Shown here: positions 7,735 to 32,265 of the stretch, piece after piece
Layout: each line of letters opens with the position of its first letter
Position numbering within the stretch: position 1 is the first letter of the stretch
Assembly (NCBI GenBank): GCA_025056375.1
Contig: JANWWH010000011.1
Location: forward strand, 1-34,358
Length of the DNA stretch: 34,358 nucleotides
Reading direction: 5' to 3'
Source: Aquificaceae bacterium
GTDB taxonomy: Bacteria; Aquificota; Aquificia; Aquificales; Aquificaceae
The notes under the pieces: generated by a model
What the model saw: only the letters and a program-made list of their open reading frames with translations
Told to the model about the DNA's origin: nothing
The model's database searches: none
Translations under genes and position numbers: made by a program

Positions 7735-9612
7735 TTACTTTGCTAGTTTCAGAGACTCTTCCACCATCCTGTTTTTCTCGTAGAGCTTTCTGAGGTTTTC
7801 GCTCCTTTCCGTTATCCAGTTGCTCCTATAGAGGTGCACCTCCCTTGGCATCTCTCTATTAACCGAGAGGACAGAGGTGGGTTTTTTATCCCCTTCAGGC
7901 AGGTATTCTAAAAGACTTCTGAGGAACTCCGTATGGTTGAAAGAGCCCGGCAGGAACCTCTTTGCTCTGAGCTCGCCCATAAGGGTGCTGTAGGTGCCCT
8001 CCAGCTCACCCATGAGGTCAAGGGGCACTTTTATCTGTGCGTACTGGGCTATGCCATCCTCAAAGGGTGATAGGACAACCAAGTGCTCCAGTCTCTCAAA
8101 AGACTTCTTTAGCCTTTCCACGTCCACGTAGTCCAGCAAGTCCTCTCCGAAAAGGACTGCGTTTTTTGCAACCTGAAGGGACTCCAAAGGGTCAGAGAGC
8201 CATTCCAGAGGTATGTTGCCTATGAGCCCCAGAGAGTTACCCTCTTGGAGTAGTAAGAGCCTGAAGCCCTTTTCTTTACACAATTCTTTCAGGTATAATC
8301 CCCACTCCTCCGCCTCCTTAGCCCCCATACCAAGGGGGTTGAAAACTATAACCCCCTCACCTTCCAGCCCCTTCAGCTCTTCCTTGTCTATGTCTACGGG
8401 GTTAAACTTTAAGTCTCTCTGGCTTTTACCTACCCTGTAAACCTTTCCCTTTATGTAATAAGAAAGGACGGGTGCGGTGGAGGTCACATCCTGACCCACA
8501 AGAACGTAGAAGTCAGCCTCCAGTATGTCTCTTATGGTAAGGGGTATGTATTCTCCGTAAGCCCGAAGGAAGGGAAGGAGGTCAAAGGAAAGGGTTGAGG
8601 CAACCATAACCCCGGTCCTTCTTACAATTTCTCTTATAAGCTGATAGTCCTCGTTGCTCAGGTAAGAAGAGAGCACCAAGAGGGTCTCTTCTCCCTTCCC
8701 CTTTAGAAGTATGGAAAGATAATTGGCTACATTTCCCTTGGTCTCCTCTCTTCCAAACATGCGGGGGCTTTTCAGTCTCTGGTGGTTGAGGTGGTCATAA
8801 CCGAAGAAGGCTTTGGCGCATATGTTTAACTCCTCTGTGGGTTTTGTTCTGTAGACCTTCTCCTTTGACCTCCAGTCACCCACACCATACTCTATCTGTA
8901 TCTCACAGCCCACGGGGCAGAGGTTGCAGATGGTTTTCTCCTTTTTAAGGAGCCAGCTCCTGGTCCAGTACTTGAAAGGCTTGGATATGATAGCTCCTAC
9001 GGGACACACATGGACGCAAAGACCACACATCTCACAGGTAGAAGTGTCCATGGGCTTGAGGGTGGGTGCTATGTTTGCCTGAAAGCCCCTTTCTTCCACA
9101 TAGAGGGCATGAGCCCCCACCACATCATCACAGGCTCTGGTGCACCTGTAGCACACCACACACCGGTTAGAATAGTATTCCAGAAAGTCGCTCTCCCAGT
9201 CCACCTGATGTCTTTCCTTATGAAGTGCAGAGACGGGAACTATCTGCCTTTGGGGTCCAAAAAGAGCTCCGTAGTTCTGAAGGTCGCACTCCCCAGCCTT
9301 GTCACATATGGGGCAGTCCAGAGGATGTCTTGTCATAAAAGCCTGAAGAAGATACTTTTGGTTTTCCAATACTAAGGGGTGTTTTGTAGATATGGACATA
9401 CCCTCTTCTGGGTAGACATTGCAAGATGTCATGAGCCTCCCCGTCTTTTCGTTGAACACTATACACATTCTACAGGCACCTATTATCCTCAGTCTGGGGT
9501 GGTAGCAAAAGTAGGGAACCTGAATACCCAGTTCAAGAAGGCTTTGAAGCAGGGGTTTTCCCCTGTCCACCTCTCGCTCTATGCCATCAACTTGTATTCT
9601 TACACTGTTCAT
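7735..9612 (-). CDS. nuoG: NADH-quinone oxidoreductase subunit G
   Basis: NuoG is the large iron-sulfur subunit of the peripheral arm of complex I. In order: a 2Fe-2S site (FCYHPRLRIIGACRMC then SCNVYP), the N5 cluster motif HPLDCPICDKAGEC, two ferredoxin-like 4Fe-4S motifs (CVVCYRCTRAC and CEMCGLCVHVCP), and CNLCPVGC followed by a later NICAK, which matches the extra N7 cluster of some bacterial enzymes. A degenerate molybdopterin-oxidoreductase region fills the rest; no cofactor role is implied. I choose ATG 9612 (625 residues), because GGAGG lies about 8 bases before it; the tracked start at 9627 is itself part of that site. The gene starts inside the 3' end of the diguanylate cyclase gene. 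No other nuo gene is in the window. Confidence 0.95.
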   Translation of the reverse strand: MNSVRIQVDGIEREVDRGKPLLQSLLELGIQVPYFCYHPRLRIIGACRMCIVFNEKTGRLMTSCNVYPEEGMSISTKHPLVLENQKYLLQAFMTRHPLDCPICDKAGECDLQNYGALFGPQRQIVPVSALHKERHQVDWESDFLEYYSNRCVVCYRCTRACDDVVGAHALYVEERGFQANIAPTLKPMDTSTCEMCGLCVHVCPVGAIISKPFKYWTRSWLLKKEKTICNLCPVGCEIQIEYGVGDWRSKEKVYRTKPTEELNICAKAFFGYDHLNHQRLKSPRMFGREETKGNVANYLSILLKGKGEETLLVLSSYLSNEDYQLIREIVRRTGVMVASTLSFDLLPFLRAYGEYIPLTIRDILEADFYVLVGQDVTSTAPVLSYYIKGKVYRVGKSQRDLKFNPVDIDKEELKGLEGEGVIVFNPLGMGAKEAEEWGLYLKELCKEKGFRLLLLQEGNSLGLIGNIPLEWLSDPLESLQVAKNAVLFGEDLLDYVDVERLKKSFERLEHLVVLSPFEDGIAQYAQIKVPLDLMGELEGTYSTLMGELRAKRFLPGSFNHTEFLRSLLEYLPEGDKKPTSVLSVNREMPREVHLYRSNWITERSENLRKLYEKNRMVEESLKLAK

Positions 9613-10456
9613 CCTTTTTTCCTCCATCTATCAGGTATACTCTCTCTTTGGACGCGGCTACGCCAATTTTGCCCCTTCCGGACTTCTTTGCCTTATACAT
9701 GGCGATGTCCGCCCTTTCTATCACATCTTCATACCTTTCGTCCTGCTCCAGAGGATGGGTCAGACCTATGCTCACAGAGAGGGGAAAGGAAAACTCCAAA
9801 CACTCTACATAGCTAAAGACTCTTAGGGCTACGCGCTCACACCCCTCCAGAGCGGTGTTGGGGAGTATAATCAAAAACTCGTCACCCCCATACCTGCAAG
9901 CTACATCCGATGACCTTAACATAACCTTCAAGTAGGAGGATATCTTCCGTATGACCCTGTCGCCCGTCAGATGCCCCTGCTTATCGTTTATCTCCTTGAA
10001 GTTGTCAATATCTATAAACATAAGCCCGAAGGGCTGTCCGTATCTCTTCCACAGGCTGAAGTTCTTTTCAAGAAAACTCTCCGCAAAGCGTCTGTTGTAG
10101 AGACCTGACAGAGGGTCTATCATACTTAACCTGAGCACCTGAATGCTGGTTATGTTTATTACATTTTCCCAGTATATACCTTGGGTGGGTGCACTGCCGT
10201 AGCCTCTTATGTAATTTTCGTAGCTGACGCTTATTATGTCCACATCCGTTATCTTATCGTAGACAGGGCATTTAATACCCATATGGTAACATGGTTCGTT
10301 AAAGGCGTAGAGCACCTTATAACACTTTTTGCCTACCACATCACCAAACATACGTCTCGCGCTGTCGTTCAGCGTTAGGAGGTTGTAATCCTCGTCTATG
10401 GTAACGGAGGGTATGTAGCTTCTCAACTCCTTTTCTTGAACCTCCGTTATTTCCAT
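9587..10456 (-). CDS. PAS-GGDEF diguanylate cyclase
   Basis: A probable cytoplasmic diguanylate cyclase, making cyclic di-GMP from two GTP. Residues roughly 10-120 form a PAS-like sensor with SVTIDEDYNLLTLNDSARRM and a cysteine set, KKCYKVLY, EPCYHM and KCPVYD, seen in some PAS domains and possibly ligand-binding (inference). The GGDEF domain starts near DPLSGLYNRRF and has FIDIDNFKEINDKQGH, intact RYGGDEF, SIGL and ADIAMYKAKKSGR. RSSD five residues before GGDEF is a textbook inhibitory I-site. No transmembrane segment is seen. AGGAGGT (minus strand, 10463-10469) precedes the ATG by about 6 bases. It lies 17 bases after the NosL-like regulator gene, and its last codons overlap the nuoG start, so the three are probably cotranscribed. 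Confidence 0.93.
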   Translation of the reverse strand: MEITEVQEKELRSYIPSVTIDEDYNLLTLNDSARRMFGDVVGKKCYKVLYAFNEPCYHMGIKCPVYDKITDVDIISVSYENYIRGYGSAPTQGIYWENVINITSIQVLRLSMIDPLSGLYNRRFAESFLEKNFSLWKRYGQPFGLMFIDIDNFKEINDKQGHLTGDRVIRKISSYLKVMLRSSDVACRYGGDEFLIILPNTALEGCERVALRVFSYVECLEFSFPLSVSIGLTHPLEQDERYEDVIERADIAMYKAKKSGRGKIGVAASKERVYLIDGGKKDEQCKNTS

Positions 10457-10473: not shown

Positions 10474-11049
10474 TTATAGACTTATTTTAACAGCTGTTCC
10501 CCTTCTCATGAGCTTTTCCACACCCTCCACAGCACCTTCAAAATCTACAACAAAACCCCCAAAGCCTCTCGAAAATTTCTCCGCATCCTCTTTGCTGGTA
10601 AAAGCTATGGCAGAGGGTGAACAGCAGGGCATGGCGGAAGAACCTAAAACATACCAAGCGGAGAAACAGCTCATGGGCTTGCAGTTTATAAAGTCCCAGG
10701 TCATGCAGGCTTCTATGTCCTCCTCCTTAAGATTTTTGTATAGTAAAAGACCGCAGTGGGCACAGCAGGCTTTTACAAGCCTACCTCTCCTGAGCCTGTA
10801 TGTGAACTCCAACCTTTTCTCAATAGGTTTTGTGCAGTAAGCACAGGTTGTTACCCCTTCTTCCAAAACTTCCCCTGCCTCTTCTCTGAGAAGGAGCTCC
10901 CCGTGTTTCCTAACAATCCTCCCTTCCTTCTCAAGCTCTCTCACATCTCTGTATATGGTCATAAGAGAAACACCAAAATGCTGCGCAAGAGATTTCACAT
11001 TTCTCAACCCCTGAGTTATAAGTTCCACTATTTCTTCCTTTCTGGTCAT
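10474..11049 (-). CDS. DeoR-type HTH protein fused to a Cys-rich NosL-like domain; candidate metal-responsive regulator
   Basis: Residues 1-55 form a winged-helix HTH of DeoR type: RKEEIVELITQG, SLAQHFGVSLMTIYRDVREL, EKEGRIVRKHGELLL. The remaining 135 residues hold ten cysteines (69, 72, 95, 96, 99, 115, 123, 128, 142, 143), including CAYC and CCAHC, and end with SAIAFTSKEDAEKFSRGFGG, which resembles the C-terminal half of NosL-family copper-binding domains. There is no signal peptide or lipobox, unlike periplasmic NosL. A cytoplasmic metal- or redox-sensing repressor or activator is the inference; ligand and targets are unknown. A TATAAT on the minus strand lies 6 bases before the ATG, with no Shine-Dalgarno. 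It heads a unit with the diguanylate cyclase and nuoG. Confidence 0.85.
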   Translation of the reverse strand: MTRKEEIVELITQGLRNVKSLAQHFGVSLMTIYRDVRELEKEGRIVRKHGELLLREEAGEVLEEGVTTCAYCTKPIEKRLEFTYRLRRGRLVKACCAHCGLLLYKNLKEEDIEACMTWDFINCKPMSCFSAWYVLGSSAMPCCSPSAIAFTSKEDAEKFSRGFGGFVVDFEGAVEGVEKLMRRGTAVKISL

Positions 11050-11055
11050 GCTAAA

Positions 11056-11061
11056 ATTATA
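11056..11061 (-). promoter_or_regulatory. Candidate -10 element for the regulator-cyclase-nuoG unit
   Basis: On the minus strand this is TATAAT, ending 6 bases before the ATG at 11049. A TTCCCA about 17 bases further upstream is a poor -35 match. Such spacing would place the transcription start at or next to the start codon. The 11050-11177 gap also contains the carB C-half promoter region on the opposite strand, and I see no gene in it. Confidence 0.5.
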
Positions 11062-11177: not shown

Positions 11178-12770
11178 ATGAAAAAAGTCCTAATCCTCGG
11201 CAGTGGTCCGAACCGCATAGGTCAGGGTATTGAATTTGACTACGCTTGCGTGCATGCGGTCTTTGCTCTAAGAGAGCAAGGTATAAGGACCATAATGCTC
11301 AACTGCAACCCTGAGACCGTGTCCACTGACTACGACACTGCGGACGCCCTTTACTTTGAACCCGTGGTGCTTGAAAATGTGCTCGAGGTCATAAGGAGGG
11401 AAAAGCCTGACGGCGTGTTCCTTCAGTTTGGGGGTCAAACCCCTCTAAAACTCTCCCTGCATCTAAAAAACTTAGGCATAAACATTCTGGGCACGCCGCC
11501 TGAAAGCATAGACATGGCTGAGGACAGGGAGCTCTTCCGAAGCCTTGTGGAGAAACTGGGCATAAAACAGCCGGAGAGCGGGACCGCAAGGACAAAAGAA
11601 GAGGCTCTAAGGGTAGCGGATGGGCTGGGCTATCCCTTGCTTGTAAGACCCTCTTACGTGCTTGGTGGAAGGGCTATGAGAATAGTCTACGATAGGGATG
11701 ACCTTTTGCAATACCTTGAGGAGGCAGTGAGCGTAAGCTACGAGAGACCCATACTCATAGACAAGTATCTCTCCGACAGCGTGGAGGTGGATGTAGATGC
11801 CATAGGAGACGGCGAAGAGTATCTAATAGGTGCGGTTATGGAACACATAGAAGAGGCTGGGGTGCACTCAGGAGATAGCGCAGCCAGCATACCCCCATAC
11901 AGCCTTCCACCGGAAGTGGTGGAGGAGATAAAAAGACAGTCAAAACTCATAGCAAAGGAGCTGAGGGTGAAGGGTCTGGTGAACCTTCAGTTTGCGGTGA
12001 AAGAGGGAGAGGTTTACGTGCTTGAGGTAAATCCAAGGGCTTCAAGAACCGTTCCCTTTGTTAGCAAAACTATAGGCTATCCTTTGGCGAAGCTCTCCGC
12101 TCTGGTGGGTATAGGCAAAGGGTTAAAAGACTTAGTGCCAGAGGTTTTTGAAAGATTGAGAGAAGGCACAGCCCACCCTGCCAGTGACTTTATGTCTGTG
12201 GACAAAAGGATATACTCGGTGAAGGAGGTGGTCTTTCCTTGGAGTAGGTTTCCTGAGGAAGACCCTGTGCTCGGACCAGAGATGAAAAGCACGGGCGAGG
12301 TGATGGGAGTTGCGGACTGCTTCGGCCTTGCTTATTACAAGGCTCAGCTCTCTGCAGGGAGCAGGCTACCTACTTCAGGTAAGGTTTTTCTGAGCGTCGC
12401 GGACAGAGACAAGCCCAAAATAGCAGACCTATGCGTAGGCTTTCTCAATTTGGGCTTTGAAGTATACGCCACCCAAGGCACTTACCAGTATCTTACAGGC
12501 ATGGGACTTAAAGTAAGGCATGTTTTGAAGGTATCCGAAGGGAGGCCCAACGTGGTGGACATGATAAAGAACCAAGAGATAAACCTCATCATAAACACGC
12601 CCACTGGTAGAAAGGAAAGGGGCGACGCCCATCACATAAGGAGGTCTGCGGTTCAGTATGGTATACCTTACACTACCACCGTGAGGGGTGGGTATGCCAT
12701 GTTGGAGGCTATAAGGAGCTACTTGGAGCACGGTGGAAAGCTCAAAGTTTACGCCCTTCAGGACATATGA
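11178..12770 (+). CDS. carB: Carbamoyl-phosphate synthase large subunit, C-terminal half
   Basis: This is the second half of CarB, which carries the carbamoyl-phosphate domain and the allosteric domain for pyrimidine and arginine synthesis. It begins exactly where the second ATP-grasp repeat starts in fused CarB (KVLILGSGPNRIGQGIEFDY), continues with LNCNPETVSTDYD, LVRPSYVLGGRAM, VYVLEVNPRASRTVPFVSK, and finishes with an MGS-type domain (FEVYATQGTYQYL, INTPTGRKERGD, YTTTVRGGYAMLEAI). It has 530 residues and its own start, so it is a stand-alone gene, not a truncation. The N-terminal half is at 30592-32265. Split carB is known in Aquifex. The THEP1 gene overlaps its stop by 4 bases. Confidence 0.96.
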   Translation: MKKVLILGSGPNRIGQGIEFDYACVHAVFALREQGIRTIMLNCNPETVSTDYDTADALYFEPVVLENVLEVIRREKPDGVFLQFGGQTPLKLSLHLKNLGINILGTPPESIDMAEDRELFRSLVEKLGIKQPESGTARTKEEALRVADGLGYPLLVRPSYVLGGRAMRIVYDRDDLLQYLEEAVSVSYERPILIDKYLSDSVEVDVDAIGDGEEYLIGAVMEHIEEAGVHSGDSAASIPPYSLPPEVVEEIKRQSKLIAKELRVKGLVNLQFAVKEGEVYVLEVNPRASRTVPFVSKTIGYPLAKLSALVGIGKGLKDLVPEVFERLREGTAHPASDFMSVDKRIYSVKEVVFPWSRFPEEDPVLGPEMKSTGEVMGVADCFGLAYYKAQLSAGSRLPTSGKVFLSVADRDKPKIADLCVGFLNLGFEVYATQGTYQYLTGMGLKVRHVLKVSEGRPNVVDMIKNQEINLIINTPTGRKERGDAHHIRRSAVQYGIPYTTTVRGGYAMLEAIRSYLEHGGKLKVYALQDI

Positions 12771-30591: not shown

Positions 30592-32265
30592 ATGCCAAAG
30601 AGAACAGACATAAAAAAGATACTCATCATAGGCTCAGGTCCTATAGTCATAGGTCAAGCAGCTGAGTTTGACTACTCTGGCACTCAGGCTTGTAAAGCCC
30701 TTCTTCAAGAAGGCTATGAAGTGGTTCTGGTAAACTCCAACCCTGCCACCATTATGACGGACCCCCAGTTCGCCCAGAGGACCTACATTGAGCCCCTCGC
30801 AGTGGAAGTTCTTGAAGAGATAATAAAGAAGGAAAGACCAGATGCCCTTCTTCCTACTCTTGGAGGACAGACCGCCCTAAACCTGGCGGTCAGACTGCAG
30901 GAGGAGGGTATTTTGGAAAGATACGGAGTAAGGCTCATAGGAGCAAGCTACACCGCCATAAAAAAGGGAGAAGACAGAGACCTCTTCAGAAAATCTGTGG
31001 AGAGGGTCGGACTTAAGGTGCCACCCAGTGTGGTGGTTTCTTCTCTTCAGGAAGCCCTCGAGAAAGTTAAAGAGGTAGGGTTCCCTGCCATACTCAGACC
31101 CGCCTTTACCCTCGGAGGCACTGGTGGTTCTATAGCTTACAACATGGAAGAGTTTAAGGAAAAGGTGGAAACCGCCCTCAAGTCCTCGCCCATACACCAA
31201 GTGCTCATAGATAAGTCCCTTATAGGGTGGAAGGAATTTGAATTTGAGGTCATAAGGGATGCCAAAGACAACGTGATAATAGTCTGCAGTATAGAAAACT
31301 TTGACCCTATGGGCGTCCATACGGGCGATTCCATCACCGTTGCACCCGCACAAACTCTTACGGACAAGGAATACCAAATACTCAGAGATGCCTGCATCGC
31401 TATAATGAGAGAGATAGGCGTTGACACTGGTGGTTCTAACATACAGTTTGCGGTGAACCCTTTGGACGGCGACTTTTATGTGATAGAGATGAACCCGAGG
31501 GTTTCTCGTTCCTCCGCTTTGGCTTCAAAGGCTACGGGCTTTCCTATAGCCAAGGTGGCCGCAAAGCTTGCGGTGGGTTACACCCTTGATGAACTAAAAA
31601 ACGACATAACAAGGCATACACCAGCCTCCTTTGAACCATCCATAGACTATGTGGTGGTAAAGATACCACGCTTTGACTTTGCCAAGTTTCCGAGGGCTGA
31701 AAAGACCCTGGGCACCATGATGAAGTCTGTGGGGGAGGTAATGGCAATAGGAAGAACCTTCAAGGAAGCTATTGGTAAAGCCATAAGAAGTCGGGAGCAG
31801 GGTGTCCACGGACTGGCTGTGCCCGATTATTCCTCCCTTGAGGAAGAGGAGATAAGGAGGGGTTTGAGAACACCAAACCCTAACAGGTTGTGGTATATCT
31901 CGGGGGCTTTCAGAAAGGGTTTCAGCCTTGAGGAGGTTTACCAGCTCTCAAAGGTTGACCCTTGGTTCTTGGAAAACCTCAAACAGGTAGTGGAGTTTGA
32001 GAAGGTTTTGAAAGAAAAAGAGCTCACCCCGGAGACGCTCAGGCTTGCCAAGGAGATGGGCTACTCGGACGTAGAGGTGGCGTGGCTCAGAGGGGTCAAA
32101 GAGGAGGATATAAGGAGGATGAGGTATGAATGGAAGGTTCTCCCTGCTTTCAAGGGCGTGGATACCTGCGCAGGAGAGTTCATAGCTTACACACCTTACT
32201 ACTATTCTACCTACGAAAGACCTTACTACAGCGTGGAGGGGCTGGAGTTCCTTGACGAGGATTAG
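30592..32265 (+). CDS. carB: Carbamoyl-phosphate synthase large subunit, N-terminal half
   Basis: This is the first half of CarB: the carboxyphosphate ATP-grasp domain plus the oligomerisation domain. Signatures are [91 protein letters not shown] and [20 protein letters not shown]. It ends shortly after [14 protein letters not shown], the very end of the N-half in fused CarB, with 557 residues. The C-half gene is about 18 kb away at 11178. It has its own TATAAT and no Shine-Dalgarno. Its stop overlaps the stop of the convergent DUF523 gene by 4 bases, with no room for a terminator. Confidence 0.97.

Follow-up and report, generated by a model that had tools for sequence, protein, structure and literature searches.

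A DeoR-type winged helix fused to a NosL-like domain in Aquificota, very probably a YcnK-type regulator that responds to copper

A regulator gene and its surroundings

The window, a 34,358-nucleotide stretch of DNA from an Aquificaceae bacterium (contig JANWWH010000011.1), holds on its reverse strand an open reading frame that starts with ATG, encodes 191 amino acids without an internal stop and is present as a single copy in its own genome; its features and those of the adjoining genes are collected in Table 1. The N-terminal part of the protein matches the Pfam model HTH_DeoR (PF08220; residues 3-51, E 1.6e-10, 41 bits against a cut-off of 21) and the C-terminal part matches NosL (PF05573; residues 128-171, E 3e-6, 28.1 bits against a curated cut-off of 24), while the motifs IAFTSKEDAEKF and GFGG are also found. 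The original prediction, made from the sequence alone, of a DeoR-type helix-turn-helix (HTH) fused to a NosL-like domain is thus borne out by two models above their cut-offs, and the profile search led to NosL itself and not to an unrelated family. The DeoRC sugar-phosphate domain of the DeoR/GlpR sugar regulators is absent, the C-terminus being assigned to NosL by Pfam, and the NCBIfam DeoR equivalogs matched the HTH part only, with scores far below cut-off. Neither an export signal nor a lipobox was found, since the HTH occupies the N-terminus from the outset, in agreement with what had been predicted.

Table 1 Features of the regulator gene and of the genes next to it (window coordinates).
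Feature	Position	Strand	Basis and remarks
NuoG-like iron-sulfur protein, overlapping the GGDEF gene	7735..9627	-	Pfam; order kept in genus g1, partly in g8
GGDEF diguanylate cyclase	9587..10456	-	Pfam; 17 bp downstream of regulator; order kept in genus g1
YcnK-like regulator gene (DeoR-type HTH + NosL domain)	10474..11049	-	191 aa; Pfam above cut-offs; orthologues in 97/136 Aquificota genomes
C-terminal half of NosL domain, residues 128-171 (Pfam-matched part)	10537..10668	-	Pfam, profile search
Cys pair C142-C143	10621..10626	-	Invariant; aligned with GAMG (Met) motif of NosL
CCxHC motif (C95, C96, H98, C99), in first half	10753..10767	-	Invariant in 53/53
CxxC (C69-C72), opening the first treble-clef-like half	10834..10845	-	Invariant in 53/53; aligned to CxxC of Shewanella NosL 7og7
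DeoR-type winged HTH, residues 3-51	10897..11043	-	Pfam; AlphaFold secondary structure
TATAATTTTAGC, -10-like element immediately 5' of ATG	11050..11061	-	Conserved in genus as TATAATTTTAAC; read by eye

In the source genus the regulator heads a GGDEF-nuoG cluster, and the three genes are likely carried on one transcript. The N-terminal part of the GGDEF protein, to which no Pfam model matched, contains a cysteine-rich stretch (KKCYKVLYAFNEPCYHMGIKCPVYD), possibly a sensory site. Elsewhere in the window, the large subunit of carbamoyl phosphate synthase is apparently split between two genes about 18 kb apart (11178-12770 and 30592-32265). Outside the source genus the surroundings change: the regulator closes a dnaC-hisB cluster in Hydrogenothermaceae and precedes flgF or yebC in other genera. 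As none of the partners was constant across genera among the 54 loci compared, the neighbourhood was dropped as a guide to targets. No copper gene consistently adjoins the regulator across these Aquificota loci, nor is there a constant neighbour of the CopCD importer/DUF1775 type, an operon context that is typical of YcnK though not defining for it. CopD, the YcnJ-type importer domain, was not found in the regulator-bearing genera g4 and g5, and although three genomes (g9, g11) have CopD-like genes close to the regulator, these were dismissed because others do not share them. The lack of a constant copper gene nearby implies that the regulator probably acts in trans.

Most members of the genus (L002-L005, L007, L017, L021-L023, L025) have the element TATAATTTTAAC abutting, or nearly abutting, the ATG, and its retention while the DNA further upstream differs suggests that the regulator mRNA may be leaderless. 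As a candidate operator TATAATTTTAAC was rejected, because it looks like a -10 element; a palindrome 5' of the gene in Hydrogenobacter, ACTTAAATTATTAAGT, was set aside as well, being without a convincing second site in one complete genome. The copA promoters of the genus showed no obvious element in common with the upstream region of the regulator, and the search for operators across these two sets of regions returned nothing usable. In two genomes of the genus (L104, L105; G045:C4, G039:C1), the gene for a Cu-type P-ATPase is closely preceded by one for a classical exported NosL.

Conserved cysteines and predicted fold

The ten cysteines of the domain that had been counted at the outset are all present in the window protein, as C69 and C72 (CAYC), C95, C96 and C99 (CCAHC), C115, C123, C128, and C142 and C143 (PCC). 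We followed them through an alignment of 53 sequences, comprising 51 from Aquificota, a homologue from a Stenotrophomonas plasmid and a presumed YcnK sequence not taken from a database. Identical in all 53 are C69, C72, C95, C96, H98, C99, C142 and C143, together with D119, F120 and G165, whereas C115 and C128 are cysteine in 18 sequences each and C123 is variable too. The expectation that the cysteines are conserved in orthologues therefore holds for a core of seven; the other three are lineage-specific, so that the NosL-like domain is effectively a seven-cysteine domain. In the recognition helix of the HTH, M30, R34 and D35 are invariant or almost so among the aligned relatives.

An AlphaFold2 model built from 15 input sequences (mean pLDDT 84, pTM 0.61) predicts a winged HTH with helices at residues 3-12, 18-25 and 29-41 and wing strands at 45-48 and 51-54, certainty being low in a hinge (60-65) and in the tail. 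In a Foldseek search of this model against the PDB, the only matches at E <= 0.001 were NosL, which came first (7og7, E 5.9e-6), in line with the original prediction, and MerB (3f2g, E 1.2e-4); the MerB alignment spans the full length, but the two domains are placed differently (rmsd 14). The sequence profile also retrieves NosL chains; in the alignment to Shewanella NosL, C69-C72 fall on its CxxC and C142-C143 on its GAMG motif. The fold that NosL and MerB share is a TRASH-like treble clef that has been duplicated and fused, the treble clef itself being a structural zinc finger (PMC4999995).

Distribution in Aquificota and a plasmid homologue

A scan of species genomes returned 15 close relatives, all of Aquificota by content although one record is titled Acidobacteria, and a profile search over 136 Aquificota genomes located the gene in 97, which all belong to two families. 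All 15 relatives (alignment A1) match both HTH_DeoR and NosL, with HTH E-values down to 3.8e-15, meaning that the fusion, as predicted, is retained. The spread over 97 genomes and the two domains in 15 of 15 relatives show that the gene is real. The record titled Acidobacteria (L007, RFFP01000003.1) carries an Aquificaceae-type regulator with 76% identity in the same gene order and is most likely a mislabelled MAG. In two assemblies the gene is frame-shifted or split (L016:8001-8568; G026:C38), through assembly error or decay. Regulator and heme-copper oxidase COX1 occur together in 93 genomes, the regulator alone in 4, the oxidase alone in 7 and neither in 32; because two families have both and the rest neither, this co-occurrence is clade-level only, amounts to no more than one or two events and is not independent evidence.

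Outside Aquificota, a Stenotrophomonas plasmid encodes a 190-residue homologue with 37% identity and all seven cysteines. On its 3' side, in the same direction and apparently in one operon, follow genes for two membrane proteins, one matching DsbD_2 and the other carrying a cupredoxin domain, in an island that also holds copC, copD, cadA and ars genes. The DsbD-like partner resembles ArsG, with a score below the cut-off of that model. Nowhere else does the gene context point to copper. Among the control genomes, B. subtilis was one of two with a NosL-domain match above cut-off.

Comparison with YcnK and alternative readings

YcnK, a member of the DeoR family, represses the copper-uptake operon ycnKJI of B. 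subtilis in response to copper (PMC10991351, PMC8424229, PMC13344008); it is a copper-dependent HTH repressor that binds upstream of its operon (PMC8424229), and its gene is listed at 573 bp, or 190 amino acids (PMC10991351). A YcnK-like neighbour was reported at only about a fifth of the surveyed YcnI loci (PMC8424229), and linkage to that operon is thus not required. The suggestion of a possible new metalloregulator is not sustained, since the architecture is already that of YcnK; what is new here is that two Aquificota families have the regulator almost throughout and that it is separated from an uptake operon. The Aquificota protein agrees with YcnK in size (191 vs 190 residues) and in having a DeoR-type HTH followed by NosL, while it differs in lacking an adjoining ycnJ or ycnI, in its divergent sequence and in its thermophilic hosts.

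For residue-level comparison, no authentic YcnK sequence was found in the plasmid, phage and viral collections, and we used a presumed one, written out after the relatives had been seen and not taken from a database, so that its alignment counts as a strong lead and not as a comparison with a retrieved sequence. This presumed YcnK carries HTH_DeoR and NosL, is 30% identical to the window protein, with the seven cysteines and the histidine coinciding, and aligns to the plasmid homologue with 37.8% identity over 95% of the length (E 5e-34). The CxxC...CCxHC...CC set is identical in Aquificota and in the plasmid homologue, which was retrieved; for YcnK it was compared by the presumed sequence only.

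Three other systems share parts of this build. NosL, the copper chaperone of nitrous oxide reductase, has the same fold, Pfam family, opening CxxC and C-terminal motif, but is an exported lipoprotein without HTH and has Met where the regulator has Cys-Cys. The organomercurial lyase MerB likewise consists of a winged helix followed by the NosL/MerB fold and aligns over its full length in Foldseek, but it is an enzyme, its relative domain placement differs as described above, and its Pfam family model gave no match to the regulator up to E 1. The archaeal regulators CopR/CopT are copper-responsive and fuse an HTH to a treble-clef-type heavy-metal domain (PMC7830388), though their HTH is Lrp-like and their TRASH domain single, as against a DeoR-type HTH and a duplicated NosL fold.

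Taken together, the protein is a real HTH-NosL fusion and very probably a YcnK-type regulator that responds to copper, and we give a probability of roughly 0.7 to its being a thiol-based, Cu(I)-responsive transcription factor. Its proposed role as a sensor, a cytoplasmic HTH protein with a NosL-like metal site, stands as the best reading, whereas the ligand, the way in which the protein responds to it, the operator and the targets are what we infer; copper is favoured over zinc, Fe-S or a disulfide because of the YcnK parallel and because a homologue lies in a copper-type operon. The N-terminal winged helix would bind the operator, and the C-terminal domain, with its two fused treble-clef halves, would bind a thiophilic metal via the conserved thiols, with cytosolic Cu(I) as the likeliest candidate. 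C142-C143, at the position of the NosL Met motif, would form part of the metal site, and the CxxC/CCxHC set may either complete it or hold a structural zinc. Once bound, the metal would alter how tightly the protein holds DNA, presumably as copper-dependent repression by analogy with YcnK.

A zinc-stabilised regulator whose metal site is structural only, and whose true signal is redox (a disulfide between vicinal cysteines) or a small ligand, is an unlikely alternative: the pairs C95-C96 and C142-C143, the origin of the fold in a structural zinc finger (PMC4999995) and the respiratory (nuoG) and signalling (GGDEF) neighbours in the source genus would suit it. Seven strictly kept cysteines and a histidine nevertheless exceed the needs of one zinc site. 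Moreover, YcnK, with what we take to be the same cysteines, responds to copper. Somewhat less probable still is a regulatory relative of MerB that uses the same domain to sense a different thiophilic metal or metalloid (Hg, organomercurial, Cd, As), a reading which the match to the two-domain MerB build and the cadA, ars and ArsG-like genes around the plasmid homologue would favour, while the unmatched MerB model, the cupredoxin-domain partner of that homologue, which points to copper, and the copper response of YcnK speak against it. That the protein is no regulator but a cytoplasmic copper chaperone or buffer with a retained HTH-like domain, as NosL is a chaperone and the winged helix of MerB shows that such an architecture need not bind DNA, is highly improbable given the conserved recognition helix, the strong DeoR-type HTH matches and the binding of YcnK upstream of its own operon (PMC8424229).

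A Cu(I)-responsive regulator of the YcnK type might also have a wider role, as a core, stand-alone global regulator that adjusts respiration (e.g. GGDEF, nuoG) to copper or thiol status in Aquificota, with regulators built from a winged helix and the NosL fold being ancestral to MerB; we regard this combined proposal as speculative and rather improbable. The finding adds two families of thermophilic hydrogen oxidisers, in which the regulator is nearly universal, to the range of YcnK-type copper regulators, and offers a heat-stable protein for solving the structure of such a regulator and locating its copper site. Since the build is common to MerB, how an enzyme could arise from a metal sensor becomes a testable question.
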